Made by a program: the position numbers and the translations under genes
Source of the DNA: Actinomycetota bacterium
GTDB taxonomy: Bacteria > Actinomycetota > Acidimicrobiia > Acidimicrobiales > Ilumatobacteraceae
Direction of reading: 5' to 3'
Length of the DNA: 49,116 bases
NCBI GenBank assembly: GCA_026393535.1
Contig: JAPKZY010000038.1
Location: 1-49,116, forward strand
In this document: positions 1 to 49,116 of the stretch, one piece after another
Position numbering within the stretch: the stretch's first letter is position 1
Layout of the letters: every line of letters begins with the position of its first letter
Notes under the pieces: model-generated
Told to the model about the DNA's origin: nothing
The model's input: the letters and a program-made list of their open reading frames with translations, nothing else
Database searches by the model: none

Positions 1-1920
1 GTCACCAGGTGTTGGTTGCAGATCGCGTTCATCAATGCGGATACTTCCTACTTTGCGCACTACCCGCTGCACTAAGTCATCTCGAGATTTGTCCCACAAT
101 AAGTGCGACTCAAGTTCAACGTCGTCTCCAAGCACAGTGGCAATGAATTCAATATCCACGGCCGCACCGCGACGAAGCCGAGATGTTGAACGTTGGGCAT
201 CAATATCGGCTGCAACGACAAACTTCTCGCGCGCTATGGGGTCTTTCGAATCCATGGTGACGCCACCACCGCCTCGCATCACAAACTGGCCTGGTGACGA
301 TCTGCGCATACCGAGCCTGTCGGGGTACGCAGACAACAAAACAACACCACACAATGAATCAACAGCCCCATCAGAAACATTGTCATCAGTATGAATAGAT
401 GACCGTCGTGCTATATCGCGTGCGGCTTCAAGAACACGGCGGGTAGCACCGCGATCTGCTGCATCGTGGTGTGCAATGCCCAGTACCGCTTTCACACGCA
501 ATGCAAGGTCTGCGGGCAGTGTGTCTGGTTTGCCGCGCATGATGTCGCGTTCTTCTAACAATGCTGCAACAACACATGCAATCCATCCGTGTGGATGCAG
601 GTCTCTGTTGCGCGCAACCATGGTGCCAAGGCGTGGGTGTAGCGGCAAACCAAGAACAGATCTGCCAAGCGGCGTGATGTGGCCGTCGTGGTTGAGAAGG
701 TGCAACATGGTCAAGGTGTCGGTAGCTACACGCAAGGACTTTTCTGGAAGTGCATCCAGAAACGACAACTGCGCAAGCGGGGTACCCCAAGCAGCGACTT
801 CTAAGGCAACACCGCACAAGTCGACCTGTGTGATCTCGGCCGGTAAATGAGCAAGGCGAGTGGAATCTTCAATACGGCTCCACAATCTGTATGCAACACC
901 TTCGCGCACGCGCCCTGCACGACCACTGCGTTGATCAGCTGATGCCCGCGATGAGGTAACAGTGACTAATTCGGTTAGTCCTGTGCGTGAATCAAGTCGT
1001 GGCACGCGAGCGATGCCGGCATCGACCACGATGTGAACTCCATCAACAGTTAAGGACGTCTCGGCGATATCAGTAGATAACACCACACGACGGCGCCCAA
1101 GACCGCTGGCGTTCAATGCGGCGTCTTGTTCAGAAAATGGCAGTGCGCCTGCAAGTCGCAACACGTCAACGTTGCCCGCCACGCGTTCTTTCAACAATGT
1201 TTGAGCCCTGTTGATCTCGCCGATGCCGGGCAGAAACACCAAGATGTCGCCATCATCAGTGTTGAGTGCCCCGAGAACCACATCTGTAATTGCATTTTCA
1301 AGTCGGTCATTGCGTTGGCGTGGCACATACCGAACATCAATCGGGAACGTGCGTCCTTCCGAGGTGATGATTGGTGCGTCACCTTGGTCGTCTGCAAGCA
1401 CATGTGCAAACAATTGTGTTTGCGCCGTGGCAGACATCGCCAGGATTTTAACGTCTGTAGAAAATGTCTTGATTGCATCAAGAAGAAATGCAAGCCCAAG
1501 GTCTGTTGGCACATTGCGTTCGTGTACTTCATCAAAAATCACAAGAGCAGTGCCATCAAGTGTTGGATCATTTTGTAAACGGCGAGTTAGAATTCCTTCT
1601 GTCAGAACTTCAATGCGTGTATTGGCGCCAATCTTTCGTTCATCACGTGTCTGGTATCCAACCGTGTCGCCAACTTTTTCGCCAAGCATGAATGCCATGC
1701 GTTGCGCTGCTGCTCGCGCAGCAAGTCGACGTGGTTCAAGCATCACTATTTTGCGGCCCGCTATCCAGTCCTCGTTCAATATTCGAAGAGGAACAAGCGT
1801 TGTTTTACCTGCACCAGGTGGCGCAATAAGAACCGCGTGTCGCCGTGAGGCGAGTGCGTCTCTCAGCTGTGCAATGGCCTCTTCAACAGGGAGACCTGTG
1901 TTCGGTAACGAATCAGACAA
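1..1920 (-). CDS. hrpB: ATP-dependent RNA helicase HrpB-like (partial)
   Basis: A DEAH-box superfamily 2 helicase that continues past the left edge; about 640 N-terminal codons are present and HrpB is usually 800-850 residues. The reading frame is open throughout. The minus strand reads Walker A PPGAGKTT (near 1800-1825), the LEPRRLAARAAA motif Ia, DEVHE (near 1525-1545), the MSAT motif III (near 1425-1440), VFLPGIGEI (near 1210-1235), and motif VI QRSGRAGRVREG (near 905-940). The order and wording fit HrpB rather than HrpA. The probable start is TTG at 1920, overlapping the upstream gene stop by 8 nt, which implies translational coupling; no clear Shine-Dalgarno is seen and the start is uncertain. 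HrpB's role in the cell is poorly defined; RNA unwinding is inferred from the family. Confidence 0.93.
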   Translation of the reverse strand, partial: MSDSLPNTGLPVEEAIAQLRDALASRRHAVLIAPPGAGKTTLVPLRILNEDWIAGRKIVMLEPRRLAARAAAQRMAFMLGEKVGDTVGYQTRDERKIGANTRIEVLTEGILTRRLQNDPTLDGTALVIFDEVHERNVPTDLGLAFLLDAIKTFSTDVKILAMSATAQTQLFAHVLADDQGDAPIITSEGRTFPIDVRYVPRQRNDRLENAITDVVLGALNTDDGDILVFLPGIGEINRAQTLLKERVAGNVDVLRLAGALPFSEQDAALNASGLGRRRVVLSTDIAETSLTVDGVHIVVDAGIARVPRLDSRTGLTELVTVTSSRASADQRSGRAGRVREGVAYRLWSRIEDSTRLAHLPAEITQVDLCGVALEVAAWGTPLAQLSFLDALPEKSLRVATDTLTMLHLLNHDGHITPLGRSVLGLPLHPRLGTMVARNRDLHPHGWIACVVAALLEERDIMRGKPDTLPADLALRVKAVLGIAHHDAADRGATRRVLEAARDIARRSSIHTDDNVSDGAVDSLCGVVLLSAYPDRLGMRRSSPGQFVMRGGGGVTMDSKDPIAREKFVVAADIDAQRSTSRLRRGAAVDIEFIATVLGDDVELESHLLWDKSRDDLVQRVVRKVGSIRIDERDLQPTPGD

Positions 1921-2413
1921 GTGCGGGTGTGCCGCGAAATGAACCAGGGTCGCCAGGGGCAGGAATGGTTGGTCGAGACCAACTGGTGAGCGCTGCAACG
2001 GCTGCGGCAACTTCTTTCCAATCAGCTGATGTCCACCCTTGGGCGGCAACAGGAACAGACCCGTCAGACTTGATGAGAACAAATGCAGGAAGTTCGGTTA
2101 ACCCGAGTGCCTTCACGGCGACACGATCAGGATCGCAGAACACCAGGAACTCGTCAGCGAAAGGACCAAGGAAAGCGCGAGCATCGCTTGCGTCACAGGT
2201 GACGATGAAGTTAATACGAACGGCGGCTCCAGAGAATTGACGAAGGATTCGGGCTGCAGTTTTGAGAATCCATGCGCTCTCGTTCGTGAATGGGTCAAGG
2301 ACCACCGAAGCGAGGTGAAAAGTGGTGAGCCAATGATGAAGAGTCTTCGCGTCACCTTTGAGAGGGGTGAGGGTGAGGTCCATGCTGGGGTTGGGGAGAG
2401 ATGCGGTTGCCAC
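1913..2413 (-). CDS. thioredoxin-fold-like conserved hypothetical protein
   Basis: A 166-residue protein directly upstream of and overlapping the hrpB-like helicase, so probably co-transcribed with it. The middle and C-terminal part, containing VTCDASDARAF, FLVFCDPDRVAVKALG and ELPAFVLIKSDG, follows the pattern of a thioredoxin-like fold (strand, helix, then a cis-Pro LPAFV loop before a strand). No CxxC active site is present, so a redox role is not supported. The start is GTG at 2413, with a -10 hexamer TAGCGT (2421-2426 on this strand) ending 7 nt upstream, suggesting a leaderless mRNA. An internal ATG at 2383 is an alternative. Family assignment is tentative; the exact function is unknown. 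Confidence 0.7.
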   Translation of the reverse strand: MATASLPNPSMDLTLTPLKGDAKTLHHWLTTFHLASVVLDPFTNESAWILKTAARILRQFSGAAVRINFIVTCDASDARAFLGPFADEFLVFCDPDRVAVKALGLTELPAFVLIKSDGSVPVAAQGWTSADWKEVAAAVAALTSWSRPTIPAPGDPGSFRGTPALV

Positions 2414-2419
2414 GTCTTC

Positions 2420-2439
2420 AACGCTAGTTCAGTAGCGTT
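2420..2439. promoter_or_regulatory. symmetric bidirectional leaderless promoter
   Basis: Perfect inverted repeat AACGCTA / TAGCGTT with a 6-nt spacer, between two divergent genes. Each arm supplies a TAGCGT hexamer, and on both strands exactly 7 nt separate the hexamer from the start codon (GTG 2413 on minus, ATG 2446 on plus). The arrangement reads as two mirrored -10 elements. Confidence 0.6.
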
Positions 2440-2445
2440 GAGAAC

Positions 2446-3252
2446 ATGCATCCCATCGAGCATCTTCGTTATGTGGCACGAGCCCATGGGGCAGACCCAG
2501 TGGAAATTGCTATGGGGGCGGCCGACGCTCTCGCGGGTATTTCCCGTGATCCGGCAGCGGCCCTTGTGTCCGCCCGTCGCTTAGTGGAACATCACCCCAC
2601 AAACGCTCCGCTGTGGTCTGTGTGCGCCCATGCGGTCACTTCGATGGACCCGTACCGCGACGTTGATGATCTGGCGCGCCGTATTACTAGTGACGCCACA
2701 GCTACTCACTTGGTCGATGCACTCGAAGGCGCGTCAACTATTTGCATGATTGGTTGGTCTGGGCATCTGGTTGATGCACTCGCACGGCGTGGCGACATTC
2801 ATGCGCTTGTCGTTGATTCATTAGGTGACGGACAAGATGCGTTGCGTTATTTGTCGCGCCGCGAAGTGAGTTGCGAACTAGTTGCACCTGAAGGTCTCGC
2901 ATCTGCTGCTGAATGCGCTGATGCCACAATTTTGTCGGCGCTCGCAGTTGGTAATGACAGTGTGTTGTGCGCTGGCGGTTCACTGGCACTCGCTGCTGTT
3001 GCATATTGCGTCGAACAACCAGTGTGGATGGTCGCATCTGAAGGCACACGCTTGCCAACCGGATTGTTTACAGCCATGGTGGGCGGAGTGCGTGACCGTC
3101 CAGACCCATGGGCATCAGGTTTTGATGTTGTGCCACATGCACTCGTGTCATCTGTCTTTGGGCCAACCATTACGTCAGGTACTGCTGACACCCTTGCCCG
3201 CATGAATGCGTGCCCTGCTGCCGATGAACTTCTTCGGCGCAGTGTTATGTGA
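2446..3252 (+). CDS. eIF-2B alpha/beta/delta-like family protein
   Basis: A 268-residue protein. The second half has the typical arrangement of the eIF-2B / ribose-1,5-bisphosphate isomerase / methylthioribose-1-phosphate isomerase family: TICMIGWSGHLVDAL, then CADATILSALAVGNDSVLC, AGGSLALAAVAYCVEQPVWMV and the final strand near residues 190-215. The N-terminal helical part is short. In true isomerases a conserved GAD-type acidic segment sits where this protein has SALAVGND, so catalysis is uncertain. The start ATG 2446 lies 7 nt after a TAGCGT -10 and has no Shine-Dalgarno, so the message is probably leaderless. It is transcribed away from the thioredoxin-like/hrpB pair. Substrate unknown; family call moderate. 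Confidence 0.7.
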   Translation: MHPIEHLRYVARAHGADPVEIAMGAADALAGISRDPAAALVSARRLVEHHPTNAPLWSVCAHAVTSMDPYRDVDDLARRITSDATATHLVDALEGASTICMIGWSGHLVDALARRGDIHALVVDSLGDGQDALRYLSRREVSCELVAPEGLASAAECADATILSALAVGNDSVLCAGGSLALAAVAYCVEQPVWMVASEGTRLPTGLFTAMVGGVRDRPDPWASGFDVVPHALVSSVFGPTITSGTADTLARMNACPAADELLRRSVM

Positions 3253-3298
3253 CCGTTCCGTCTAAGTTAGGAATCTCGAATCAACAAGGAGTTTTCTG

Positions 3299-3967
3299 AT
3301 GGGTGAAATGGTCGAATTCAAAAGCAATGGCGGAACATGCACTGGCTATCTTGCCGGCACTAGCGGTCCAGGGGTCATCGTTATTCAAGAGTGGTGGGGC
3401 TTAGTTCCACACATCACTGACATTGCAGATCGTTTTGCTGTAGAAGGTTTTGTTGCACTCGCACCGGATATGTATCACGGTGAAGCAACGGACGAGCCAG
3501 ACATGGCTGGCAAGTTGCTCATGAGCATGAATCTTGCAACAGCAGGAAAAGATCTCAGTGGTGCAGTTGATTTACTGCAAGAACGTACCGGTCGCACAAA
3601 AGTTGGCGTCACAGGTTTTTGTATGGGTGGTGGACTCGCACTCATGGCTGCATGTTTGCGTCCTGATGCAATTGCTGCTGCAGCACCGTTCTACGGCGGT
3701 ATGCGCCCCGACACTGTTATTGAGTGGGACAACTTGGCAGCAGTTGTTGAAGGTCATTACGCCGCAACAGACCGTGGCACTGCTGCACCAGAAGCCGTGA
3801 AAGAACTAGAAGCCACATTGCGTGGCAAAGGTAAGAACGCCACGTTCCATGTGTACCCCGGAACACAACACGCATTCTTCAATGACACTCGCCCAGAGGT
3901 GTATGACGCCGCAGTTGCAAAAACTTCGTGGGATCGCACTCTCGCGTTGTTCCGCACACACCTCTAG
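3299..3967 (+). CDS. dienelactone hydrolase family protein
   Basis: An alpha/beta hydrolase of the dienelactone hydrolase (carboxymethylenebutenolidase) family, 222 residues, close to the usual 230. The Cys-Asp-His triad is visible: C108 in GFCMGGG, D158 in the AATDRG loop, and H191 in GTQHAFFND. The family's Glu is present as E31 in IQEWWG. The enzyme should be cytosolic; true substrates of these homologues are often unknown, so dienelactone hydrolysis is only a family inference. The start ATG 3299 has a good Shine-Dalgarno AAGGAG at 3286-3291 and a possible -10 TAAGTT at 3263-3268, so unlike many genes here it has a leader. Confidence 0.93.
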   Translation: MGEMVEFKSNGGTCTGYLAGTSGPGVIVIQEWWGLVPHITDIADRFAVEGFVALAPDMYHGEATDEPDMAGKLLMSMNLATAGKDLSGAVDLLQERTGRTKVGVTGFCMGGGLALMAACLRPDAIAAAAPFYGGMRPDTVIEWDNLAAVVEGHYAATDRGTAAPEAVKELEATLRGKGKNATFHVYPGTQHAFFNDTRPEVYDAAVAKTSWDRTLALFRTHL

Positions 3968-3985
3968 CCCTCGCCCTACAAGGGA

Positions 3986-4023
3986 TTTATCAGGTGTTAT
4001 CTAATTAAATAACACCTGATAAA
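3986..4023. promoter_or_regulatory. perfect 15-bp inverted repeat, likely operator
   Basis: Arms TTTATCAGGTGTTAT (3986-4000) and its exact reverse complement (4009-4023) flank an 8-nt AT-rich centre. The repeat ends 8 nt before the ATG of the HTH gene at 4032. No T-run follows, so an operator bound by the downstream HTH protein is more likely than a terminator for the upstream gene. Confidence 0.7.
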
Positions 4024-4031
4024 GTGAAGGA

Positions 4032-4349
4032 ATGGACGCAGCACAGGTCATCAGGGAGGCTCGAGAAAAATCGGGCTTGTCCAAACGGGAACTTGCTCGT
4101 CGCGCGGGTACATCGCCCGCGGCCATCGTGAAGTACGAATCACGGCAAACATCTCCAACGGTCGACACCATGAACAGAATTCTGCGTGTTGCGGGTTGGG
4201 AAGTGGAAGTTCATCTCGCTCCTGTGTTGCAAGAACTAGTGCAACGTGGCGAGATGATGGCTGATCTCTTATCGATAGTTGACTTGGTAGAAATTCGACC
4301 AGCGGATCCATATTTAAAATTTCCGAGGTTTCAAGATGTTGTTCACTGA
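4032..4349 (+). CDS. XRE-family HTH antitoxin-like regulator
   Basis: A 105-residue DNA-binding protein with a Cro/C1-type helix-turn-helix at about residues 5-55 (REAREKSGLSKRELARRAGT, then SPAAIVKYESRQTSPTVDTM). It begins 8 nt after a perfect 15-bp inverted repeat, the probable autoregulatory operator. Its end overlaps the next gene by 14 nt. HTH plus nucleotidyltransferase in a tight overlap resembles two-gene toxin-antitoxin modules, this being the antitoxin/repressor by inference. The purine stretch GAAGGA abuts the ATG with almost no spacer, so a weak or unusual ribosome site is likely. The C-terminal half has no recognised domain. Confidence 0.85.
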   Translation: MDAAQVIREAREKSGLSKRELARRAGTSPAAIVKYESRQTSPTVDTMNRILRVAGWEVEVHLAPVLQELVQRGEMMADLLSIVDLVEIRPADPYLKFPRFQDVVH

Positions 4350-4923
4350 ACTGATTTTTGCAACTCACAAGGCCTTGGATGATGCCGGTCTAGAACATGC
4401 TTTTGGCGGTGCACTCGCGTTAATGCATTATGTGGCCGAGCCTCGTACAACGTGGGACGTCGACGTCAATATCAGTGTGAGTAGAGAGAATGCAGATGTA
4501 GTCGTTGCTGCATTGTCGGGCATTGTTCAAGCCACTGAAGAACAGGTTGCATTGTTGAAGCGAGATGGTCAAGTGCGACTGCTTGTCGGCCGATACCCCC
4601 TCGACATCTTTCTTGCAGAACATGAATTCCATGACGAGATGCGCATGATGTCGTCAATGCGTCCATTTGGCGACCGAGAACTTCCATATATCTCGGCAAC
4701 TCATCTCACCGTCTTGAAAGCAATGTTTAATCGCAGTAAAGACTGGGTTGATATCGAGTCAATGTTGCGGCACGGCTCAGTGGATGTTCAGCGAGCGATT
4801 GGTTGGCTTGTCACCCTGAAAGGACCAGATGAAGAAGCCCCAGCTCGCATTCGTGCGATGTCACTTCTCGGACCCGAAGTGGAACCGAATGTGCGAGAAC
4901 TCTTCAATCAGAAGAAAAATTAA
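4336..4923 (+). CDS. nucleotidyltransferase, AbiEii/DUF6036-like toxin candidate
   Basis: A 195-residue protein of the polymerase-beta nucleotidyltransferase superfamily. Residues 24-28 form the GGALA helix-turn, followed by RTTWDVDVNI with the metal-binding pair D41 and D43; a third acidic residue may lie in YPLDIFLA. The pattern (GG-x-A, about 15 residues, T-x-D-x-D) fits the AbiEii/DUF6036-type proteins found next to small HTH partners. It overlaps the XRE gene by 14 nt, so the two are translationally coupled. A toxin role through nucleotide transfer to RNA or protein is inferred from related systems; an uncharacterised cellular nucleotidyltransferase is the alternative. Confidence 0.75.
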   Translation: MLFTELIFATHKALDDAGLEHAFGGALALMHYVAEPRTTWDVDVNISVSRENADVVVAALSGIVQATEEQVALLKRDGQVRLLVGRYPLDIFLAEHEFHDEMRMMSSMRPFGDRELPYISATHLTVLKAMFNRSKDWVDIESMLRHGSVDVQRAIGWLVTLKGPDEEAPARIRAMSLLGPEVEPNVRELFNQKKN

Positions 4924-4964
4924 CTACTTCCGCGCGCAGCTGTAGCTCGCGAATTTGTAACTAG

Positions 4965-5831: not shown

Positions 5832-5856
5832 GGAGTCTCCTCAGTGTTGTGGGGGT

Positions 5857-6906: not shown

Positions 6907-6985
6907 GCCTTAATCGTATGGGGGGACTGACTCTGGGGAAACATTGCCAGAGGGGATGCTGATATATACACATGAAAAGTATGGA

Positions 6986-6991
6986 TATACT
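6986..6991 (+). promoter_or_regulatory. -10 element of vapBC
   Basis: TATACT ends 7 nt before the ATG at 6999, matching the spacing at many other genes here. It overlaps the inverted repeat AAGTAT-N4-ATACTT (6977-6992), a plausible operator for VapB/VapBC autoregulation. Confidence 0.5.
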
Positions 6992-6998
6992 TAGTGGC

Positions 6999-7193: not shown

Positions 7194-7597
7194 AGTATCT
7201 CATTGACACGAGCGTTCTTCATCGTTTGAAGAGTGATGAGGTCCTGACAAAAGTTCGTGCACTTGCGTTGAACGGTGAAATTGCACGTTGCTCACTAACC
7301 GACCTCGAATATTTGTATTCGGCACGTAACGAGGGTGAATGGGAAGGTGCTTCACATCTGTTGTCGCGATTTTTCAATATTGAAATTCAACATGAACATT
7401 TCACACGTGCTTTGCAGGTGCAAAGAATTCTTGCGCAAAAATCTCAACGCGGCCGCAAAATCCCAGATCTCATCATTGCGGCGGTCGCAGAACAATTAGA
7501 TCTCACGTTGTTGCACTACGACATTGATTTCGACCATATTGCAGAGATCACAGGTCAACGTTCTGAATGGGTCGTGCCTGCGGGCCAAATCTCCTAG
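7184..7597 (+). CDS. vapC: VapC-type PIN-domain ribonuclease toxin
   Basis: A 137-residue PIN-domain protein. The acidic catalytic set is intact: D8 in YLIDTSVLHRL, E42 in LTDLEYL, D95 in IPDLIIAAVA and D113/D115 in HYDIDFDHIAEITG. VapC toxins cleave tRNA or rRNA when the antitoxin is lost; the exact target cannot be read from sequence. It overlaps vapB by 10 nt, giving strict coupling. Its stop TAG (7595-7597) forms the first three bases of the apparent -10 TAGTGT of the next gene. With its intact active site the module appears functional. Confidence 0.92.
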   Translation: MALKYLIDTSVLHRLKSDEVLTKVRALALNGEIARCSLTDLEYLYSARNEGEWEGASHLLSRFFNIEIQHEHFTRALQVQRILAQKSQRGRKIPDLIIAAVAEQLDLTLLHYDIDFDHIAEITGQRSEWVVPAGQIS

Positions 7598-7607
7598 TGT
7601 CGTGGGC

Positions 7608-9890: not shown

Positions 9891-9969
9891 GGCCTAAACG
9901 CTAGTGAATAAGTGTCGGGTTCAGAGCACTCGTGACGTCTGTACGGGCCTTCACGCCTAGTCTTTGGAT

Positions 9970-11019: not shown

Positions 11020-12205
11020 TGAAGTGCAGCGCCGTTGGCGCATCAGTAGGGCTTTGCAGTTTGTCGTGCTCGGCGCAATTGTGTACTTTTTTGTGTTGCC
11101 CCTGATCCCCGGATTCCGCGATGCAGTCAGAAATCTAAAAAACGTTGACCCAAATTTGTTGTTTGTTGCACTGGGTCTCCAAGGGTTTTCGCTACTTGCA
11201 TATTCCATGTTGACGAAAGCTGCACTAGGCGACCATGGCGCAGGCATCAGCCTCTTGCGCCTGTTCCGCATTCAACTCAGCACAAAGGCATTAGGAAACA
11301 TTGTTCCAGGAGGTAGTGCTGCAAGTACAGCGCTTGGATACCGACTGATCACAATGTGCGATGTAAAGGGTCCTGATGCAGCATTTGCATTAGCGACTGC
11401 CGGTGTTGGTTCAGCAGTCGTGTTGAACTTCATATTGTGGTTCGGATTGATTATTTCTATTCCCACTAGAGGTGTCAACGCTGCCTACGGAACGGCCGCG
11501 ATTGTTGGAATTCTTCTGATGGCATTTGCGGGTTTCATAATTTTCGGTCTTGTTGAAGGTCAAGGACGTTCGGAACGTCTGGTCCGGTCCGTTGCCCGAC
11601 GATTGCGATTCGATGAAAATCACGCAGCTTCAGTACTGGAGCATTTAGGTAACAGAATTGAGGGACTTTTCACAGATCGCGCATTGATGCAACGTGTTGT
11701 TGGCTGGGCAACTTTGAACTGGGCGCTTGACGCATTGTCGCTGTGGGTTTTCCTTCGGGCATTTGGCGGCAGTCTTGGTTTTGATGCACTTGTCGTGTCG
11801 TTTGGAATTGCAAATGTGTTTTCTGTAATTCCCATCACACCGGGTGGATTAGGAATTATGGAGAGCATCTATATTCCAACTCTTGTTGGGTTCGGCCTTG
11901 CTCGTCCATTGGCCACTGTAGGAGTTCTCTCGTATCGCGTCGCTCAATATTGGTTACCAATTTTTGTTGGTTGGCTGAGTTATTTGTCGTTGCGTGTCGG
12001 ACCGTTCTCCATCGACCGCAAACACAAGTTGGGGCCTTTGCCGCGTGTTGCCACGTCGCAGGCACAACGTGGACTCACCACCGTCGACTGGGTTGAGAAA
12101 TTTGCTCCGCGCGACCGAACTGGGCAGTTTCCGATGCCAGTATTTGACCCATCTGATCTTGAATTCTCAGATGACGATACGGATGGCACGCTGAAACCTG
12201 AGTAG
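11003..12205 (+). CDS. lysylphosphatidylglycerol synthase TM / UPF0104 flippase-like protein
   Basis: A 400-residue polytopic membrane protein with about eight hydrophobic segments, beginning at residues 15-35. The motif NIVPGGSAASTALGYRLI and the late PITPGGLGIMESIY are typical of the AglD/MprF N-terminal-like flippase family (lysylphosphatidylglycerol synthase TM region). The C-terminal 70 residues are soluble and end in an acidic DDDTDG stretch. There is no aminoacyl-transferase domain, so lipid or polyprenyl-linked substrate transport is more likely than lipid lysylation. ATG 11003 (or 11012) overlaps the hydrolase stop, indicating coupling. Its stop TAG 12203-12205 is part of the -10 of the next gene. 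Confidence 0.85.
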   Translation: MDNMADEVQRRWRISRALQFVVLGAIVYFFVLPLIPGFRDAVRNLKNVDPNLLFVALGLQGFSLLAYSMLTKAALGDHGAGISLLRLFRIQLSTKALGNIVPGGSAASTALGYRLITMCDVKGPDAAFALATAGVGSAVVLNFILWFGLIISIPTRGVNAAYGTAAIVGILLMAFAGFIIFGLVEGQGRSERLVRSVARRLRFDENHAASVLEHLGNRIEGLFTDRALMQRVVGWATLNWALDALSLWVFLRAFGGSLGFDALVVSFGIANVFSVIPITPGGLGIMESIYIPTLVGFGLARPLATVGVLSYRVAQYWLPIFVGWLSYLSLRVGPFSIDRKHKLGPLPRVATSQAQRGLTTVDWVEKFAPRDRTGQFPMPVFDPSDLEFSDDDTDGTLKPE

Positions 12206-12215
12206 CGTTGGAGTC

Positions 12216-14447: not shown

Positions 14448-14488
14448 ATCCGAACGGTACTCGGGTGTGGTGCGACACGCGTCACTCT

Positions 14489-14504: not shown

Positions 14505-14533
14505 CAAGAGCGAACATGCGTAGCGTTAGAGAA

Positions 14534-15373: not shown

Positions 15374-15396
15374 CCTGTTGCGTCTAATCTGAACTC

Positions 15397-16276: not shown

Positions 16277-16280
16277 ACAA

Positions 16281-18305: not shown

Positions 18306-18345
18306 AGTGTGCAGGATAAGGGCAAGTGCACGGTACCGTTTTGGC

Positions 18346-18616: not shown

Positions 18617-18712
18617 AATCGTTGTTGAAGACGGACCAATTTTTTATCGAAATTTCCCTTATCCGTAAGAAAACGCATTTCAACCACACACCTTTGCTCT
18701 AGGGTGACTTCA

Positions 18713-20160: not shown

Positions 20161-20174
20161 TAGCCTTGACTCCT

Positions 20175-20261
20175 ATGTCGAAGAAGACCAAAAAGCGTAA
20201 GGCGCGCATGCGCCGCTCCAAGGCCAACCACGGCAAGCGTCCAAACATGGGTCGCGGCTAA
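20175..20261 (+). CDS. 50S ribosomal protein bL37 (28 aa)
   Basis: A 28-residue, extremely basic protein: MSKKTKKRKARMRRSKANH followed by GKRPNMGRG. The ANHGKRPN ending matches the tiny actinobacterial large-subunit protein bL37, first seen in mycobacterial ribosome structures (about 24 residues there). It binds rRNA and has no separate fold. TAGCCT (20161-20166) ends 8 nt before ATG 20175, with no Shine-Dalgarno, consistent with leaderless translation. Such a short gene is easily missed by automatic gene finders. It lies between the HNH lipoprotein and a VOC protein, with only 12 nt to the latter. Confidence 0.85.
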   Translation: MSKKTKKRKARMRRSKANHGKRPNMGRG

Positions 20262-21843: not shown

Positions 21844-21917
21844 GACGCAGTAACGATAGGTCGCGGGAGTGTCGCAGAAGGGGAGAGTGTGCCACACCCT
21901 TTTGGCAGTATGTCTCC

Positions 21918-23526: not shown

Positions 23527-26349
<2,823 letters not shown>

Positions 26350-26411
26350 ACTCGCCACCGTACTCAGCCGGCGTCCATGAGAAGCGACACCTATGGATAG
26401 CCTGCATTCGT

Positions 26412-27155: not shown

Positions 27156-27199
27156 GCTGAAGGTTGAGGCGCCCCCAGCGTTGGTAGCGTTTCGGTGCT

Positions 27200-29826: not shown

Positions 29827-29891
29827 GATGTGACAATGGTCCACATTGCAAAACTGATCTTCATGAATGTCACCGTAGTAGCGTAACGTGA

Positions 29892-30536: not shown

Positions 30537-31181
30537 ATGGCTGAACAATCAATGAACAAGAGCGCAGAGGCCAGTCGCAAGCGTGGACGACCTGCGGACA
30601 CGGATTCCACAGACACTCACGATCGCATTGTGCTTTGTGCGCGTGAACGTTTTGCAGCAGAGGGATTCGAAGGCACAACGAATCGCGAGATTGCCGAGAC
30701 AGCGCAAGTGTCTAGTGCGGCGTTGTATCACTACTTTCCTTCGAAGGTAGATATTTACATTGCGGTGTGTGATTCCATCACTGAAATTTTTGTGGATGTT
30801 TTTGCTCGAGTGAAGGCATCTGAGACCACTCTTGAGGCACGGCTTGTTGCACTGTTTGCAGAAGTCGGAACACTGGGGGAAAGCGCCCCTTCTACTGTCG
30901 GATTCATCACGGGTATTTCGGCAGTAGTACAAAAGCACCCCGAAGTGTCGAAAGGTACCGATGCCTTCGGCAAGGAATTTGGTCGAAATATTATTGACCT
31001 CATTACGACGGCAAAAGAAGCTGATCAAATCTTGCAGGGCACAACAGTGCAGTCATTCGCCGATCTAGTGTCCTCTGTTCTGGCCGGATTAGGCAGAATG
31101 AGTGCTCGAGGAGACCAATCACGCCATGTTGCAGTGGCTGCTGCCTTCTTAAGACTGATTCATACTGCTGCACAGAAGTAA
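30537..31181 (+). CDS. TetR/AcrR-family regulator
   Basis: A 214-residue repressor-type protein. After a basic KRGRP motif the HTH reads DRIVLCARERFAAEGFEGTT, NREIAETAQVSSAALYHYF, PSKVDIY. The C-terminal ligand-binding domain is variable and does not identify the effector. ATG 30537 is used; CATACT (30526-30531) is 5 nt upstream, and ATG 30552 is an alternative. Its stop TAA (31179-31181) forms the first three bases of the TAAGTT element in front of pgi. Targets may include bioY upstream, but nothing direct shows it. Confidence 0.92.
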   Translation: MAEQSMNKSAEASRKRGRPADTDSTDTHDRIVLCARERFAAEGFEGTTNREIAETAQVSSAALYHYFPSKVDIYIAVCDSITEIFVDVFARVKASETTLEARLVALFAEVGTLGESAPSTVGFITGISAVVQKHPEVSKGTDAFGKEFGRNIIDLITTAKEADQILQGTTVQSFADLVSSVLAGLGRMSARGDQSRHVAVAAAFLRLIHTAAQK

Positions 31182-31190
31182 GTTGGCGTC

Positions 31191-32744: not shown

Positions 32745-32766
32745 CAAAGGGGATAACCTGCATGCA

Positions 32767-35257: not shown

Positions 35258-35310
35258 AGATTGCACCTTAGAGCGGGGGTGGGGCATGGTGATGTAATCA
35301 TCGTGTGACA

Positions 35311-35728: not shown

Positions 35729-35734
35729 GTGGTG

Positions 35735-37661: not shown

Positions 37662-37736
37662 AAGTCGAATGCTTGCTTTTTGTGATCAAAGCAGTTCAAA
37701 TTGTTTGACAACTCCGATTCCGGGGAGGAATACACA

Positions 37737-38021: not shown

Positions 38022-38048
38022 CCACTTACACAACGAGAGGAAACTCAA

Positions 38049-38430: not shown

Positions 38431-38440
38431 GGAGTGTCGG

Positions 38441-38470
38441 AATGGGGGGCGAAAGCCCTCCATTTCACTT
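38441..38470 (+). terminator. hairpin terminator of the hup-tail operon
   Basis: AATGGGGGGC (38441-38450), GAAA tetraloop, GCCCTCCATT (38455-38464): a 10-bp stem with one G-U pair, then TTCACTTTC. The stem and tetraloop are strong and the U-tract is weak, as is common in actinobacterial terminators. Confidence 0.75.
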
Positions 38471-38515
38471 TCTCCGGACAAGTTCTCACCGTTGCATTTC
38501 GGGCACACTTGTGGA

Positions 38516-40646: not shown

Positions 40647-40693
40647 CTAGTCAGCCTACGAACCCTGTTGGGCTTGTGACCTACGCTAGAGAC

Positions 40694-43660: not shown

Positions 43661-43666
43661 GTTCGA

Positions 43667-43676
43667 AGCCTACGCT
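43667..43676. promoter_or_regulatory. overlapping divergent -10 elements (MOSC gene / rnhB)
   Basis: AGCCTACGCT contains TAGGCT on the minus strand (43667-43672) and TACGCT on the plus strand (43671-43676), sharing the TA at 43671-43672. They end 6 and 7 nt before ATG 43660 and ATG 43684 respectively, within a 23-nt intergenic gap. Confidence 0.6.
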
Positions 43677-43683
43677 CTGCTTT

Positions 43684-44307
43684 ATGGCACGACCAGTTCC
43701 CACTCTTGACTACGAGCGCGAACTGATGGCAACTGGTGCTCGCATCATTGCCGGGATGGACGAAGTGGGTCGTGGCGCAATTGCTGGGCCAGTCACCATC
43801 GGAGTTGTTGCGATTGATGCAACGATTGGCGCAGTGCCTGAAGGTTTGGCCGATTCGAAATTGATGACGCCAAAACGCAGAGAAGCAATGGTGCCAATTG
43901 CAAAAGAGTGGGGCCTTGCGTGGGCAACAGGTTCTGCCACGGCAGCCGAAATTGATAAGTACGGAATTATGACTGCATTGAGTCTTGCGGGCAGTCGCGC
44001 TTTGACAGCACTGGGAGTGCAGCCAGACATCATCATTCTTGATGGCAATAACAGTTTTCTACTTGAAGAAGATAATGGGCCACGCATTGTGACACGCATC
44101 AAAGGCGACCAAACATGCGCGAGCGTGTCGGCAGCCAGTGTTATTGCAAAAGTAGAACGTGATGCGTTGATGACGCAATTACATGAGCAGTTTCCACACT
44201 ACGGATGGAGCGGTAACAAGGGCTATGGCGCAGCAGTACACACTGATGCAATAAAGATTCACGGTGTCACTGACCTGCATCGCAAGTCGTGGAACTTAGG
44301 TGTTTAG
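43684..44307 (+). CDS. rnhB: ribonuclease HII
   Basis: A 207-residue RNase H-fold nuclease that removes ribonucleotides embedded in DNA. IIAGMDEVGRGAIAGPVTIG holds D26 and E27, PDIIILDGNN the third acidic residue, and KGDQTCASVSAASVIAKVER and HYGWSGNKGYG are standard RNase HII blocks. TACGCT (43671-43676) ends 7 nt before ATG 43684; the in-frame ATG at 43645 lies inside the divergent gene and is rejected. The last four bases overlap the convergent dehydrogenase. Confidence 0.96.
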   Translation: MARPVPTLDYERELMATGARIIAGMDEVGRGAIAGPVTIGVVAIDATIGAVPEGLADSKLMTPKRREAMVPIAKEWGLAWATGSATAAEIDKYGIMTALSLAGSRALTALGVQPDIIILDGNNSFLLEEDNGPRIVTRIKGDQTCASVSAASVIAKVERDALMTQLHEQFPHYGWSGNKGYGAAVHTDAIKIHGVTDLHRKSWNLGV

Positions 44308-45557
44308 CTCTTAGCGCCTGAGACTTTGATGTCTTTAAATGGAGACACAGAGTCGATTCCCATGTCCTTTGGAAGACCAAGGACGCGCTCACCAACGATG
44401 TTGCGCATCACTTCGTCTGAACCACCGGCAATACGAAGGCCAGGTGCACCAAGTACGAAGTTTGACCATGCGTAGGTGCCCCATTCGCCACTGTCTGCGA
44501 TGAGCTTTGGTCCGAGAACATGTGACACGAACTTCACAAGACGAGCTTGGTTGTTCACCAATACCATCTTGCCAACCGAACCTTCAGGTCCAGGAAGTTT
44601 TCCGGCCTTGGCTGATGCTGCTGTGCGCTGAGCGTTCATTGCAGCAATGCGGTAGTTCATGATGATGTCTGCAAGTTGCACACGAATGAGTGGGTCTGTG
44701 TCAAGTCCGTAATGCTTGACCATTGCAATCACGCGGGTGAGCAAGTTGCTGTCGCCAGCGTTGCCGCCACCGATTGACGCGCGCTCGTTCATGAGGGTGG
44801 TGAGAGCTACGTTCCAGCCGTTATTGATGTCACCAAGACGGTGATCATCACGTACGCGGACTTCGTTAAAGAAGATTTCGTTGAAGCTTGCGCCGCCGGT
44901 CATCTGCTTGAGTGGACGAATATCTACGCCAGGAGCTTTCATGTCGACAATAAAGCCAGTAAGACCCTTGTGCTTTGGCATATCCCAGTCGGTACGGCAG
45001 ATGATTTCACCAATGTCTGAGTAGTGCGCACCTGAGGTCCACACTTTTTGACCAGTGATGATCCACTCGTCGCCGTCTTTGACAGCTTTTGTGGTGAGTG
45101 ATGCAAGGTCTGAACCTGCACCTGGCTCTGAGAACAATTGGCAACCAATGATTTCGGCGCTCCACATTTGCTTGATGTACAAGTCAAGAGCTGCAGGAGT
45201 TGCATGCGCAAGGATTGTTGGAGCAACCATGCCAAGACCAATGCCGAAGCAGCTTTGGTCGGCAATGCGGAATTGCACTTCGAGTTGGCTGTACAAACGA
45301 TCGTATGCAGCGGGAAGTTCGCGGCCGCCGTATTTCTTTGGTCCGGTAATCCATCCGAAGCCAGCCTTGAATTTCTTATTGCGCCACACTTTGGCTTCTT
45401 GCGCTTGAGTGAACTCTGCGTCGCGATCGCGCTCGCGATAGAAGGTGTCTGCGCCTTCGCCCCAAACGAATGCTTTTTCAGCCACACGGCGTTCCGCGTT
45501 TGCCTCGAGAAAGGTGAGTGCTTCTTTTTCAAATTCTGCGATGGTGATGTCGGCCAT
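44304..45557 (-). CDS. acyl-CoA dehydrogenase family protein (FadE-like)
   Basis: A 417-residue flavoprotein. QLFSEPGAGSDLASLTTKAV and WIITGQKVWTSGAHYSDIGE are FAD-site blocks, GWNVALTTLMNERASIGGG and SNFVLGAPGLRIAGGSDEVM follow, then RNIVGERVLGLPKDM. The position of the usual catalytic Glu (YEG in medium-chain enzymes) is Gly here (IAGGSDE), as in several actinobacterial FadE proteins of steroid or branched-chain metabolism, where another acidic residue serves or an unequal subunit pair is formed. Start ATG 45557 has Shine-Dalgarno AAGGGG; its leader contains the 45580-45593 palindrome. Substrate unknown. Confidence 0.92.
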   Translation of the reverse strand: MADITIAEFEKEALTFLEANAERRVAEKAFVWGEGADTFYRERDRDAEFTQAQEAKVWRNKKFKAGFGWITGPKKYGGRELPAAYDRLYSQLEVQFRIADQSCFGIGLGMVAPTILAHATPAALDLYIKQMWSAEIIGCQLFSEPGAGSDLASLTTKAVKDGDEWIITGQKVWTSGAHYSDIGEIICRTDWDMPKHKGLTGFIVDMKAPGVDIRPLKQMTGGASFNEIFFNEVRVRDDHRLGDINNGWNVALTTLMNERASIGGGNAGDSNLLTRVIAMVKHYGLDTDPLIRVQLADIIMNYRIAAMNAQRTAASAKAGKLPGPEGSVGKMVLVNNQARLVKFVSHVLGPKLIADSGEWGTYAWSNFVLGAPGLRIAGGSDEVMRNIVGERVLGLPKDMGIDSVSPFKDIKVSGAKS

Positions 45558-45579
45558 GGTGTGTTTGTCCCCTTAGTCG

Positions 45580-45593
45580 GACCCAATTGGGTC
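45580..45593. promoter_or_regulatory. 14-bp perfect palindrome in the acyl-CoA dehydrogenase leader
   Basis: GACCCAATTGGGTC lies between a candidate -10 TACGGT (45608-45613, minus strand) and the Shine-Dalgarno of the FadE-like gene. It is well placed as an operator for a repressor of acyl-CoA catabolism. Confidence 0.55.
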
Positions 45594-45668
45594 GGTTTCT
45601 CCTTTCTACCGTATCGGGCGGTCGATTGATGGGCGAAGCCAGGTGGAAATTGACTAGCGTGGAGCCCT

Positions 45669-46124
45669 ATGGGACAGCTTGTGGCAGTAGAACAAAAGGC
45701 TGGTGGCGTGTCCACCATTGTGCGGTTTGAGACCAATCGCTCTCTCACCGGAATGGGCCACGAACGCTTTACTAGTGCCGCCGAAGCAAAGGGTCCTCGC
45801 CCCGCCGCTGTTATCGCCCGCCGTTTCTTTGAAGCAGGGCATGTGTCCTGGGTTCATGTATACGGAAACATCATCACTGCGTCGCTTGAGGCAGGAGCCT
45901 CACAGGCGGGCCTCAACGAAATAGTTCGTGATTTGTATCAGTACTGGAAGCCAGGCATGGTGCCGCCAACACTTGAAGAACTTCTTGCGTCGATGCCAGC
46001 AGAAGTAGCTCCGGCTGCTTCATCAGGTGGCGACACCGCGGCTCCATCTGGCGAAGACCCACGCATTCCGCCGCACTTGTTCGAGCGCAGCCGTAACGCC
46101 CGTGCCCGTCTCACCGCCGCGTAG
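45669..46124 (+). CDS. NifU N-terminal (Nfu-N)-like protein
   Basis: A 151-residue protein. The first 90 residues (TIVRFETNRSLTGMGHERFT, then GPRPAAVIARRFFEAGHVSW, VHVYGNIITASLEAG) follow the Nfu/NifU N-terminal alpha-beta domain that is found next to Fe-S scaffold domains. No CxxC scaffold motif is present, so cluster transfer is unlikely to be direct. The C-terminal 60 residues are Pro/Ala-rich. TAGCGT (45655-45660) ends 8 nt before ATG 45669. It is 54 nt upstream of the SOS-boxed imuA; whether it joins that response is unknown. Confidence 0.65.
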   Translation: MGQLVAVEQKAGGVSTIVRFETNRSLTGMGHERFTSAAEAKGPRPAAVIARRFFEAGHVSWVHVYGNIITASLEAGASQAGLNEIVRDLYQYWKPGMVPPTLEELLASMPAEVAPAASSGGDTAAPSGEDPRIPPHLFERSRNARARLTAA

Positions 46125-46150
46125 AGTCGCAGGGGAGCCCCCTGAAACCA

Positions 46151-46166
46151 TCGAACATATGTTCGC
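46151..46166. promoter_or_regulatory. LexA SOS box of imuAB
   Basis: TCGAACATATGTTCGC matches 11 of 12 fixed positions of the actinobacterial LexA consensus TCGAAC-N4-GTTCGA. It sits just before the -10 TACGCT (46167-46172), where LexA would block polymerase. Confidence 0.85.
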
Positions 46167-46178
46167 TACGCTGGCCCC

Positions 46179-46826
46179 ATGGGACGCGTCGCTTTTGAAG
46201 AACTTGCAGGCATGCGCATTGCTGGGGTTGAAACAGGTGTGCAGTTTGCTGAACGTATGCACGCTCATGTCGCCAGTGGGTTTGGTCCTATTGCAGTTGC
46301 TGCATCACTAGCGCCGTTGTTGCCAGCGGCAGGTCTCGAGCGCGGCTACATATATGGCTGCACCGGTGACGCCGCTACGTCGTTGTTATTTGGTCTTGTT
46401 GCTGCAGCCACGGCTGCCGGTTCGTGGTTTGCCATGGTCAATATGCCTACTGCTGGCCTGATGTCTGCATATGAACATGGCGTGGCGTTGCACCGCACGT
46501 TGTGTGTGTCTGGTGACAACACATCGTCTGTCATGTCGCCAGTGGTCGGTGCCTTAGTTGATGGCATTGATCTTGTCGCAGTGTCATCGCCCGTGTGTTC
46601 ACAGTCTGAAGCACGACGCATTGCCACGCGCGTGAAGGCGCAAGGTGCTGTGTTGTTCGTATTGGGAAACCCTGGTGATTTTTCTCTTGATGCATCGTTT
46701 AGTGCACGCACTGTTGATTGGCAGTTTGATACTCATGCCCGATCACGCACAGTGGAAGTGTCTGCATCGGGCCGTCGTGTGTATGCGCATCGTTCGTGCA
46801 CGGTGCAGTTGCCGGGCACATCATGA
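46179..46826 (+). CDS. imuA: ImuA'-like mutasome protein
   Basis: A 215-residue RecA-fold protein acting with ImuB and DnaE2 in damage-induced mutagenesis. The Walker A position (residues 57-67, IYGCTGDAATS) lacks the lysine, and the strand-loop pattern WFAMVNMPTAGLMS and DLVAVSSPVC follows RecA without ATPase residues, as in actinobacterial ImuA'. TACGCT (46167-46172) ends 6 nt before ATG 46179, directly after a LexA box. It overlaps imuB by ATGA. dnaE2 is not in the window. Confidence 0.85.
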   Translation: MGRVAFEELAGMRIAGVETGVQFAERMHAHVASGFGPIAVAASLAPLLPAAGLERGYIYGCTGDAATSLLFGLVAAATAAGSWFAMVNMPTAGLMSAYEHGVALHRTLCVSGDNTSSVMSPVVGALVDGIDLVAVSSPVCSQSEARRIATRVKAQGAVLFVLGNPGDFSLDASFSARTVDWQFDTHARSRTVEVSASGRRVYAHRSCTVQLPGTS

Positions 46827-48286
46827 GTCGTTCTATTGCTGTGGTATTTCCACATTGGATGCAAGAACATGGTCACTTGGGTGAAGAACACGCGTTTCGT
46901 ACTTTTGAACATGTGGTGCGCGCGGTCACTGCGTTGTCGCCCCTTGTTGAAGTGCAAGATATTGGCACCATTGTGTTGTCGGCACGCGGCCCATCGCGTT
47001 ACTTCGGTGGCGATAACGCTGTTGCGCAAAAACTGCATCAGATCTGTCTCGATACCAATATGGGTTCCGCTTTTGGGGTGGGCATTGCTGATTCGCGTTT
47101 TGCAGCGCTTGCTGCAGCCCACTTAGCGGTGTCACGTCAACATCCGTGCGTTATTGATACTGCTATTACTGCTGAGTTCATTGCAGCGTTGCCAGTGGCG
47201 TCTTTGTCTCGCGTGGGTGGCATTACTGCAGACTCTGTTGATCTCTTTCAACGCTTAGGTCTTGGCACGTGCGGTGCGTTGCTGACAGTGGGTGAAGCTG
47301 CACTTATTGATCGTTTCGGCATTGAAGGCAAACGGGTGTATATGTTGGTGTCTGGTGGCGAAGTGCAACATCTTGCACCTGGTGCACCACCATCAGACTT
47401 TGCGTGCAGTATTGAGTTCGAATCACCATTGGCAAATGCGGCACACGTGGTATCTGCTGCTCGTGACACCATTGATGCCATGGTCAGTGCCATTGCGGGC
47501 CATGGTCAGCAATGCGTGCGACTGTTAATCACATGTCATACCGATCACGCAGAAAGCACTAGTCGCATTTGGGGTGAACCGCGTGGGTTTAGTGCTGCAG
47601 TCACAGCACAACGGCTTTTGTATCAACTTGAAGGGTGGCTCACTGATTCTGCTGCAGACCCTGATGCGCCCACTAGTGGCGTTATTCGTGTTGAATTCAT
47701 GCCGTTAGAAAGTCGCGAAGTGTTGGTATCGCAACCATTGTTGTGGGGCGGCAGTCAAGAAAACACAGAACGTGCAGCGCGGGCAGCCAGCATGGCAATG
47801 GCAGTGAACACCAGCGTGCAGGTAACGGTGCCACGCTGGGAAGGTGGTCGCGACATGGCAACGGTGTATTCACGCGTGCCCTTGTCTCTTGTTGATATCA
47901 CTAACCCTGACGCAAGTGAGCAACGCGTTCACACGGGCGATGGCGTTGCGCGGCACTGGTCAGGTTCCGTGCCATCGCCTTCACCAGCATCTGTTGCAGT
48001 TGAGCCACCACTTATTCGCGTTGTTGATGCCAGTGGCAGCGATGTTGGGGTCACTGGTCGGCACGAGTTGAACACCGTGCCGTCTTATGTAGAGGTCGGT
48101 AGTCAAAAGTATGACGTTGTGCGTGTTGCTGGCCCATGGCCGCTTGAAGAGCGCTGGTGGGATCCGCGTCGCAAACGTCGCCAGGTACGCATGCAGGTAT
48201 TGGTGCGTCACCCACGCCGTGGTGTTGGTGTGTTTCTTGTTGGTTTAGAAAACCAACAGTGGACTCTGCTCGCGCGCTACGACTAA
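46823..48286 (+). CDS. imuB: ImuB, Y-family polymerase-like mutasome protein
   Basis: A 487-residue protein with the Y-family polymerase plan but without catalytic acids: the N-terminal strand reads RSIAVVFPHWMQEHG, where an active polymerase would carry the first catalytic Asp. GPSRYFGGDNAVAQKL, FGVGIADSRFAALAAAHLA and LPVASLSRVGGITADSVDLF (thumb/helix-hairpin-helix region) are recognisable, and the C-terminal 150 residues contain the WWDPRRKRRQ element. ImuB bridges the clamp and DnaE2 and does not itself synthesise DNA. It overlaps imuA by ATGA and shares the CTAA end with the convergent gene. Confidence 0.87.
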   Translation: MSRSIAVVFPHWMQEHGHLGEEHAFRTFEHVVRAVTALSPLVEVQDIGTIVLSARGPSRYFGGDNAVAQKLHQICLDTNMGSAFGVGIADSRFAALAAAHLAVSRQHPCVIDTAITAEFIAALPVASLSRVGGITADSVDLFQRLGLGTCGALLTVGEAALIDRFGIEGKRVYMLVSGGEVQHLAPGAPPSDFACSIEFESPLANAAHVVSAARDTIDAMVSAIAGHGQQCVRLLITCHTDHAESTSRIWGEPRGFSAAVTAQRLLYQLEGWLTDSAADPDAPTSGVIRVEFMPLESREVLVSQPLLWGGSQENTERAARAASMAMAVNTSVQVTVPRWEGGRDMATVYSRVPLSLVDITNPDASEQRVHTGDGVARHWSGSVPSPSPASVAVEPPLIRVVDASGSDVGVTGRHELNTVPSYVEVGSQKYDVVRVAGPWPLEERWWDPRRKRRQVRMQVLVRHPRRGVGVFLVGLENQQWTLLARYD

Positions 48287-48615
48287 TGCCAATCGGGATT
48301 GTCGGGATCAATTGATGCCAGGTCTTCAAGACCATGAGTGATTGCTAGGAATTCATTTTCAAAGGAATCTTCTATGAGATCGAGGGATGTTGGAGCATCG
48401 AGGTCTGCTTCCACTCGAATGACACTCCATCCGTCTGTTGCTAAATCACAAGATGCTGAGCTGCACGCTTCAACAATGTTGATGCTCCAGAGGTGGTGCT
48501 CTCTGTCGTAGTCATATTCGGGGTGTTGAAGTGTGACAACAAAAAGGGACAAATGTTCAAGACTTGATAAGAGTCGTAAGAACTCTTCAGGTGTGGGGAA
48601 GTTGTTATCGGTCAT
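48283..48615 (-). CDS. small acidic hypothetical protein
   Basis: A 110-residue acidic protein (NNFPTPEEFLRLLSSLEHLS, then LFVVTLQHPEYDYDREHHLW and DGWSVIRVEADLDAPTSLDL) of no recognised family; an alternating helix/strand pattern suggests a compact alpha/beta fold. A Shine-Dalgarno CAGGAG precedes ATG 48615. A GC-rich hairpin at 48633-48646 lies 17 nt upstream of the start and might act as an attenuator. It overlaps imuB by four bases. Confidence 0.65.
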   Translation of the reverse strand: MTDNNFPTPEEFLRLLSSLEHLSLFVVTLQHPEYDYDREHHLWSINIVEACSSASCDLATDGWSVIRVEADLDAPTSLDLIEDSFENEFLAITHGLEDLASIDPDNPDWH

Positions 48616-48632
48616 AGTGCTCCTGTTGTAAG

Positions 48633-48646
48633 AACCCCGAGGGGTT
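48633..48646 (-). promoter_or_regulatory. hairpin in the leader of the 48283-48615 gene
   Basis: AACCCC-TC-GGGGTT on the minus strand, perfect 6-bp arms, followed by TTCTTAC. It resembles the palindrome at 38417-38430 and actinobacterial terminator stems; here it would lie in a 5' leader, so an attenuator or terminator for upstream transcription is possible. Confidence 0.4.
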
Positions 48647-48715
48647 GGGAAAGGCAGAGAAGCGGCTGATTTACATGAAAAGGAGAATAGGAAAGGGGTG
48701 TGTCACAATAAATGT

Positions 48716-49116
48716 GTGCCGATACATCGCGATGCTCAACACTGGTGTGAATTGGTCGGTGCACGCACACCTATTGATGATCGCGAGCTCGAATCAATAG
48801 AGAAATTCTTGACTCTTGCGCCAGTTCTCACAGATCCATATAACGAACATGCAGATCTTGTGCACATCACGGCTTCAGCAATAGTGGTGAGTGAAGCCGG
48901 TGACAAAGTGGCGTTGCATATGCATAAGCGACTCAACATGTGGCTGCAACCAGGTGGTCATATCGAAGTGGGAGAGACCGCAGCACAAGGTGCATTGCGT
49001 GAAGCTGAAGAAGAAACTGGTTTACCTGTGCGTCATGAAAGTGACGGCGGAGTATTTGTGCACGTTGATGTGCATCCGGGTCCGAAGGGTCATACACATC
49101 TTGATCTGCGGTATGT
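48716..49116 (+). CDS. NUDIX hydrolase (partial, runs off the right edge)
   Basis: An N-terminal fragment of 133 residues. The NUDIX box is complete: GGHIEVGETAAQGALREAEE followed by ETGL, with the metal-binding Glu residues in REAEEE; it begins after RLNMWLQPGG. The N-terminal part (HWCELVGARTPIDDRELESI) is a helical extension. NUDIX enzymes hydrolyse nucleoside diphosphates linked to another moiety; the substrate is unknown. Frame is set by the NUDIX box; GTG 48716 is the first start in frame, with CACAAT (48704-48709) ending 6 nt upstream, so a leaderless start is plausible. Confidence 0.88.
   Translation, partial: MPIHRDAQHWCELVGARTPIDDRELESIEKFLTLAPVLTDPYNEHADLVHITASAIVVSEAGDKVALHMHKRLNMWLQPGGHIEVGETAAQGALREAEEETGLPVRHESDGGVFVHVDVHPGPKGHTHLDLRY

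Follow-up and report, generated by a model that had tools for sequence, protein, structure and literature searches.

How are genes expressed when a TANNNT hexamer lies a few nucleotides before their start codons, mostly with no Shine-Dalgarno (SD) sequence? This question is raised by contig JAPKZY010000038.1, a 49,116-nt stretch (hereafter the window) of a 1.96-Mb genome from an uncultured Acidimicrobiia lineage, which is split into 113 contigs and rated 94% complete. We estimate at roughly 0.92 the probability that the hexamer is the −10 element of housekeeping sigma-A promoters giving leaderless mRNAs, with some divergent gene pairs sharing a two-way box, a reading drawn from sequence analysis. 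Leaderless transcription, the original prediction for the window, is the best account of the spacing of the hexamer, its 6-nt lower limit, the loss of SD sequences, the lack of a −35 element, the conservation of the box and its dependence on intergenic length.

We analyzed a 678-kb genome sample (GC content, 51%) that includes the window and comprises 646 genes with 60 nt of upstream sequence, 53 of them in the window and 593 elsewhere. Starts were decided by coding hexamers and start-codon type, the caller ignoring upstream sequence and hence being blind to the motif, and spacing was counted as the nucleotides between the end of TANNNT and the start codon. With these starts, the motif occurs at spacing 6-8 in 20 of the 53 window genes, where base composition predicts 2.3 (P = 4e-14) and the empirical rate, which is that of TANNNT 12-50 nt upstream of starts, predicts 1.0. 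Over the whole sample, the count is 158/646, against 29 expected from composition or 12 from the empirical rate, and spacing 6-9 yields 185 matches. As can be seen from the spacing profile of the 646 genes, two matches at 5 nt are followed by 90 at 6 nt, 44 at 7 nt, 24 at 8 nt and 27 at 9 nt, with ~3-4 per position beyond 10, while a TANNNC control on the same genes is flat across spacings. The profile thus peaks at spacing 6, and genes with an SD sequence are depleted of the motif. Such an abrupt cut-off below 6 nt is expected if transcription starts at the start codon. The small bump at spacing 9 (27 matches in 678 kb) may have its source in start calls that are off by one codon or in 3-nt leaders.

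The original prediction conceded a slight circularity, some starts having been picked partly with the motif, so a pattern that is circular, or a composition artefact, has to be weighed. A second set of window starts was chosen by conservation in orthologues (37 genes usable, 12 with too few orthologues and four without a conserved start), and the two rules indeed differ at some positions. Orthologues choose the originally proposed starts 7608, 18305 and 32767 over those of the caller and agree with it on 18346, and start 40694 is present in 5/5 orthologues where a rule taking the 5'-most start chose 40676. Yet the peak is the same with motif-blind starts, the motif precedes 18 of the 37 orthologue-chosen starts, and it is conserved above its flanks (see below), which leaves circularity or composition barely credible as an explanation. 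The hexamer ends 6-8 nt before the start at all 19 coordinates that had been listed (28 had been claimed). The statement that about half of the genes are concerned fits the window, which has 18/37 in the orthologue set and 29 starts with TANNNT at spacing 6-9 when those of the caller, the orthologues and the original prediction are pooled with start 2413 (contributed solely by a scan of divergent pairs), but falls to about a quarter in the genome sample. The window is richer than the rest of the sample (20/53 vs 138/593; Fisher p = 0.029). We considered that the contig might be misbinned and did not favor this, as its tetranucleotide composition is as near other sampled stretches as those are to one another.

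SD-like sequences were found at 16 of the 160 genes with the motif at spacing 5-8 vs 146 of the 486 others (odds ratio 0.26, p = 1e-7). The same had been claimed for the window, where an SD-like tetramer precedes one of 22 motif genes and where inspection of the upstream sequence of the six SD genes named (3299, 5831, 22394, 37737, 38049 and 45557) revealed no close TANNNT in any. TTG starts 0/158 motif genes (spacing 6-8), which use AUG or GUG exclusively, vs 16/459 genes in two other counted classes. The frequency of the motif follows the room available for a promoter and declines once gaps are long enough for a leader. At spacing 6-9, it precedes 11/12 genes in divergent gaps of 20-29 nt (with no SD), 15/62 in divergent gaps of at least 100 nt (SD in 23) and 6/119 overlapping co-directional genes (SD in 39). 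These counts bear on whether TANNNT is instead a translation signal in the mRNA, that is, a non-SD ribosome site and no promoter at all. While the distance of the motif to the start codon is fixed, and the motif is present in short co-directional gaps of 10-39 nt (48/104 genes), its rarity at overlapping genes as opposed to its near ubiquity in 20-29-nt divergent gaps speaks against it. So do the two-way elements with a common TA described below, which suit a polymerase on DNA rather than an mRNA, and the retention of CACCTCCT by the 16S rRNA, on account of which SD and leaderless modes can coexist. Moreover, A2 and T6 of a −10 box are established as the bases flipped out by sigma (a point also made in PMC10268837). 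We therefore regard a translation signal as highly improbable.

Among orthologue rows in which a start codon occupies the ungapped position, and omitting matches that begin past residue 15 as well as three named loci, TANNNT is kept at spacing 6-9 in 127/128 (21 window genes, up to 10 genus genomes), and in 17/17 of those below 80% identity. Column conservation is highest at T6 (0.95), followed by T1 and A2 (both 0.88) and the core (0.81-0.87); outside the box, it is 0.58-0.64 in the poorest spacer columns and 0.64-0.77 in the columns 7-16 nt upstream.

The core is mostly G/C, as first described. At spacing 6-9, 403 of 555 core bases are G or C (0.73), vs 267/465 (0.57) in TANNNT 12-50 nt upstream, 0.59 in all intergenic TANNNT and 0.51 in intergenic DNA, and T1 is preceded by C or G in 0.83 of cases. 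Every set of relatives tried shows an excess of core G/C over intergenic GC: 0.61 vs 0.49 in G024 (28 sites), 0.85 vs 0.53 in G001 (13 sites), 0.94 vs 0.55 in G010 (12 sites), 0.81 vs 0.51 in eight close relatives pooled (102 sites, mostly orthologues of window genes), and, in the high-GC relatives, 0.91 vs 0.72 in G017 (11 sites) and 0.96 vs 0.77 in G014 (8 sites). Core composition seems to be set by the lineage, not by genomic GC. In G014 and G017, the spacing peak occurs at lower frequency (at 6-9 nt, 8 in 118 and 11 in 116 genes, respectively), in samples that are small and where start calling may be weaker. No −35 element was detected, relative entropy never exceeding 0.05 bits between 30 and 5 nt upstream of the hexamer at 195 sites chosen by an expectation-maximization (EM) fit. 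The EM-chosen sites served the aligned logo and this test alone; the mixture weights were rejected as a measure of the fraction of genes because shuffled sequences gave similar weights. Two further boxes, CATACT and CACACT, kept ~6 nt before starts 30537 and 38516, are possible leaderless promoters in which C replaces the first T.

As for the transcription machinery, we found one sigma factor (L003), whose closest solved chains are SigA (7kif and 5uh5, which we take to be mycobacterial), then HrdB; the open reading frame (ORF) ahead of its gene presumably encodes DnaG. A CarD-family protein is present as a 195-residue ORF.

Several observations weigh against this reading. RbpA (PF13397) had no match in the 94% complete genome, whereas the Corynebacterium glutamicum control gave one, and the mycobacterial machinery is thus not fully matched. 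The strict form TAGCGT-N7-ATG is not clearly enriched genome-wide (23 vs 16 in a reversed control), 5 of the 23 matches being clustered in the window, and is mixed in 20 relatives, with for example 34 vs 1 in G017 and 17 vs 17 in G002; we rejected it as a genome-wide test, as uninformative in its own genome. The sampled stretches are mostly contigs with at least one TAGCGT-N7-ATG match, so spacing 7 can be inflated, while spacing 6 cannot. Co-directional gaps of 10-59 nt are as rich in the motif as divergent genes (67/147 vs 84/206), hence the motif is not simply a mark of first genes. As a possible start-site mark, C at −1 does not discriminate, being as common at SD genes (0.46) as at motif genes (0.44). 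Finally, the −35 test used selected sites, and the orthologue rows were restricted as described above.

Taken with these reservations, the data lead us to infer the following for leaderless expression. The −10 box would lie so near the gene that polymerase starts at, or at most ~3 nt from, the first base of the start codon, and the mRNA, devoid of leader and SD sequence, would be translated from its 5'-terminal AUG or GUG. The housekeeping sigma factor would recognize the promoter through the −10 box, that is, T1, A2, T6, the C/G before T1 and the G/C-rich core, with no −35 element.

The same box may serve two genes at once. At six loci, divergent starts 22-26 bp apart enclose one 10-bp ANNNTANNNT in which the same TA belongs to a −10 box on either strand. 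One of them is 43660/43684, where 23 bp containing AGCCTACGCT separate the two start codons. An annotation-free scan for ANNNTANNNT flanked by outward starts (spacing 6-9 nt, with an open frame of at least 80 codons on either side) recovered 6 in 678 kb, vs 0 and 0 with shifted spacings and 1 with an altered core. In 36 divergent pairs, both genes have a box; the exact TA is common to the two boxes in 6 of these pairs, and other offsets have at most 3 each (Poisson P 4e-6 to 1e-5), three control spacings giving 1, 1 and 2 pairs in all. The 18-bp geometry (TANNNTA) has 2 matches, 0 with two open frames.

We followed three of the six loci across 32 genus genomes, our own included. The whole 10-bp element between rnhB and the MOSC gene is identical in 22/22 loci with a MOSC neighbor (28 of 30 loci examined, own included) and absent in six loci, none of which has a MOSC match in the retrieved locus. 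The thioesterase/methyltransferase pair has ACCCTACTAT in 28/29 loci, being without it in L222, and the pair formed by a GNAT protein and a divergent partner that we take to be endonuclease III has A(A/G)GGTACCCT in 28/28. Over the three pairs, two-way boxes are thus kept in 78/79 genus loci despite some proteins having diverged to 50-60% identity, and the spacers around the conserved boxes differ between loci, as does the use of ATG or GTG as start codon. Identity of the rnhB/MOSC element down to its core, together with the near-palindromic nature of some elements, might be taken to mean that these are transcription factor operators lying over a promoter and not interlocked promoters. However, the six elements share A...TA...T with no evident common operator sequence, and both start codons are 6-9 nt from their own TANNNT, which makes operators unlikely.

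We infer instead that ANNNTANNNT consists of two −10 boxes with a common TA on which polymerase could load either way, producing two leaderless mRNAs from one 22-26-bp intergenic region, with implied start sites 23-27 bp apart. Such two-way leaderless promoters probably form a standing class in this lineage, in which a single 10-bp box, with no −35, leader or SD, would make up all the regulatory DNA of a divergent gene pair, so that the two genes would have to take turns on one polymerase site. Beyond our genome, the scan found a single element in 404 kb from genus relatives, again at the rnhB locus, and none in 280 kb from high-GC relatives; two sets of named argG loci, of 523 kb and 861 kb, gave one each, with controls at 0 or 1 in every set. 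Since there is no clear excess in these sets, the class is documented only for this genome and its genus.

How does this compare with known systems? Leaderless TANNNT promoters are already established in mycobacteria and corynebacteria and are not unusual for the phylum. The work on Mycobacterium tuberculosis (Cortes 2013, PMC3898074) describes a TANNNT −10 with no conserved −35 and 22-26% of genes leaderless; that on C. glutamicum (PMC3890552) describes TAnnnT, about a third of genes leaderless and leaderless starts that are AUG/GUG exclusively. Our genome resembles the former in its TANNNT −10, lack of a −35 and SD genes forming a separate set, and the latter in TAnnnT and the absence of TTG among motif genes. 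It differs from M. tuberculosis in its GC of 51%, C/G right before T1 and RbpA not being found, and in being known from sequence alone, and from C. glutamicum, for which a weak ttgnca −35 and formerly TANANT are given, in having no −35 and a G/C core. In Zheng 2011 (PMC3160421), a TA-like signal ~10 bp before the start marks leaderless genes, with high-GC Actinobacteria showing TAnnnT and mid-GC groups TAtaaT. The signal near the starts here is of this TA type, in the TAnnnT form, but the core of this 51% GC actinobacterium is G/C enriched, unlike the mid-GC TAtaaT. Two of the papers found contain both "leaderless" and "Acidimicrobi"; in one of them, the class appears within a table of anti-SD types.

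Shared −10 promoters are likewise already established in E. coli. In reports on E. coli and Salmonella (PMC12825309 and PMC10268837), one −10 of a bidirectional promoter serves both strands, and the start-site distance in E. coli is most commonly 18 bp, 10 and 23 bp also being common. Our six loci are similar in their overlapping opposite-strand −10 boxes, and 23 bp is among those common distances. From such promoters, RNAs in both directions with start sites ~7-25 bp apart would be expected; here, 23-27 bp is implied if start codons are start sites. Our loci are dissimilar in that transcription either way would begin at a start codon and in that the 18-bp form with two open frames was not found. 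The word "leaderless" is absent from both papers, and among the titles and abstract beginnings of the matches listed, which cover few subscription papers, no report joins leaderless with shared −10 promoters.

With our analysis, the range of the leaderless TANNNT signature comes to include an uncultured lineage of the Acidimicrobiia, and the results suggest that a G/C-cored box is a trait of the lineage rather than a companion of high genomic GC. The TANNNT rule helps to correct start codons and to find tiny genes, such as those for the bL37-like and ferredoxin-like proteins. The two-way elements, if truly promoters, would come near the minimum size of a complete regulatory region serving two bacterial genes and would make gene coupling through polymerase competition directly testable. 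The features of the window are collected in Table 1.

Table 1. Close TANNNT boxes and the starts they precede in the window, with two SD-led starts for contrast
Element	Positions	Strand	Spacing (nt)	Start	Gene and remarks
TAGCGT	2421..2426	-	7	GTG 2413	166-aa ORF; tentative, caller chose 2383
TAGCGT	2433..2438	+	7	ATG 2446	kept in G037, sole orthologue shown
TACGAT	6913..6918	-	6	GTG 6906	HpcH/HpaI aldolase
TAGTGT	7595..7600	+	7	ATG 7608	HAD hydrolase; start chosen by 3/3 orthologues
TAGCGT	9898..9903	-	7	ATG 9890	acyl-CoA dehydrogenase; hexamer same in 9/9 orthologues
TAGTCT	9958..9963	+	6	GTG 9970	beta-lactamase fold, PF00144
TAGCGT	12203..12208	+	7	ATG 12216	MaoC-like dehydratase; hexamer same in 10/10 orthologues
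TACCGT	14454..14459	-	6	ATG 14447	alpha/beta hydrolase
TAGCGT	14521..14526	+	7	ATG 14534	metallo-hydrolase, PF12706
TAATCT	15385..15390	+	6	ATG 15397	flavin reductase
TATCCT	18313..18318	-	7	ATG 18305	prolyl oligopeptidase; start chosen 8/8
TACCGT	18334..18339	+	6	ATG 18346	79-aa ferredoxin-like, Fer4 families; start chosen 8/8
TAGGGT	18700..18705	+	7	ATG 18713	HxlR regulator; core differs among orthologues
TAGCCT	20161..20166	+	8	ATG 20175	28-aa bL37-like protein
TATCGT	21853..21858	-	9	GTG 21843	PD-(D/E)XK nuclease; orthologue rule chose 21927 instead
TACCGT	25948..25953	-	7	ATG 25940	argininosuccinate synthase
TACGGT	26357..26362	-	7	ATG 26349	start in 8/8 orthologues; 5'-most rule chose 26427
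TAGCCT	26398..26403	+	8	ATG 26412	glycosyltransferase
TAGCGT	27185..27190	+	9	GTG 27200	L,D-transpeptidase; hexamer same in all 10 rows shown of 12, two of these each duplicating one contig
TAGCGT	29879..29884	+	7	ATG 29892	BioY
TAAGTT	31179..31184	+	6	ATG 31191	phosphoglucose isomerase
TAACCT	32754..32759	+	7	ATG 32767	WYL protein; start in 10/10 orthologues
TAAGGT	35265..35270	-	7	ATG 35257	exonuclease; start chosen 7/7
TAGGCT	40653..40658	-	6	GTG 40646	CofC-like; hexamer same in 5/5 orthologues
TACGCT	40682..40687	+	6	ATG 40694	NAD glycerol-3-phosphate dehydrogenase
AGCCTACGCT	43667..43676	both		43660 (-), 43684 (+)	two-way: TAGGCT (-) for MOSC, TACGCT (+) for RNase HII; central TA common
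TAGCGT	45655..45660	+	8	ATG 45669	
TACGCT	46167..46172	+	6	ATG 46179	ImuA'-like
AAGGAG (SD-like)	3286..3291	+		3299	dienelactone hydrolase family; no close TANNNT
GGAGG (SD-like)	37724..37728	+		37737	HU-like; no close TANNNT

The 28-aa ORF at 20175-20261 (+) is resembling ribosomal protein bL37: it scores 27.7 bits against NCBIfam NF047428 (cut-off 30), has no Pfam match and is identical in five relatives. It was missed by our caller and would be missed by length-limited gene callers. The divergent starts 2413 and 2446 flank an inverted repeat, TCAACGCTA-GTTCAG-TAGCGTTGA, with two TAGCGT boxes pointing apart. No relative of the BioY protein was found in a search of viral contigs (viral_contigs). 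Two contigs of metagenome-assembled genomes, L025 and L044, are titled Bifidobacterium breve and encode argininosuccinate synthases 99% and 79% like that of the window; these titles look wrong. Isolate names suggest lakes as the habitat of the lineage. At 46179-48286, an ImuA'-like gene, whose mRNA would be leaderless, precedes a gene resembling that of DNA polymerase IV, which scores below its cut-offs, and the two may form a mutagenesis cassette.

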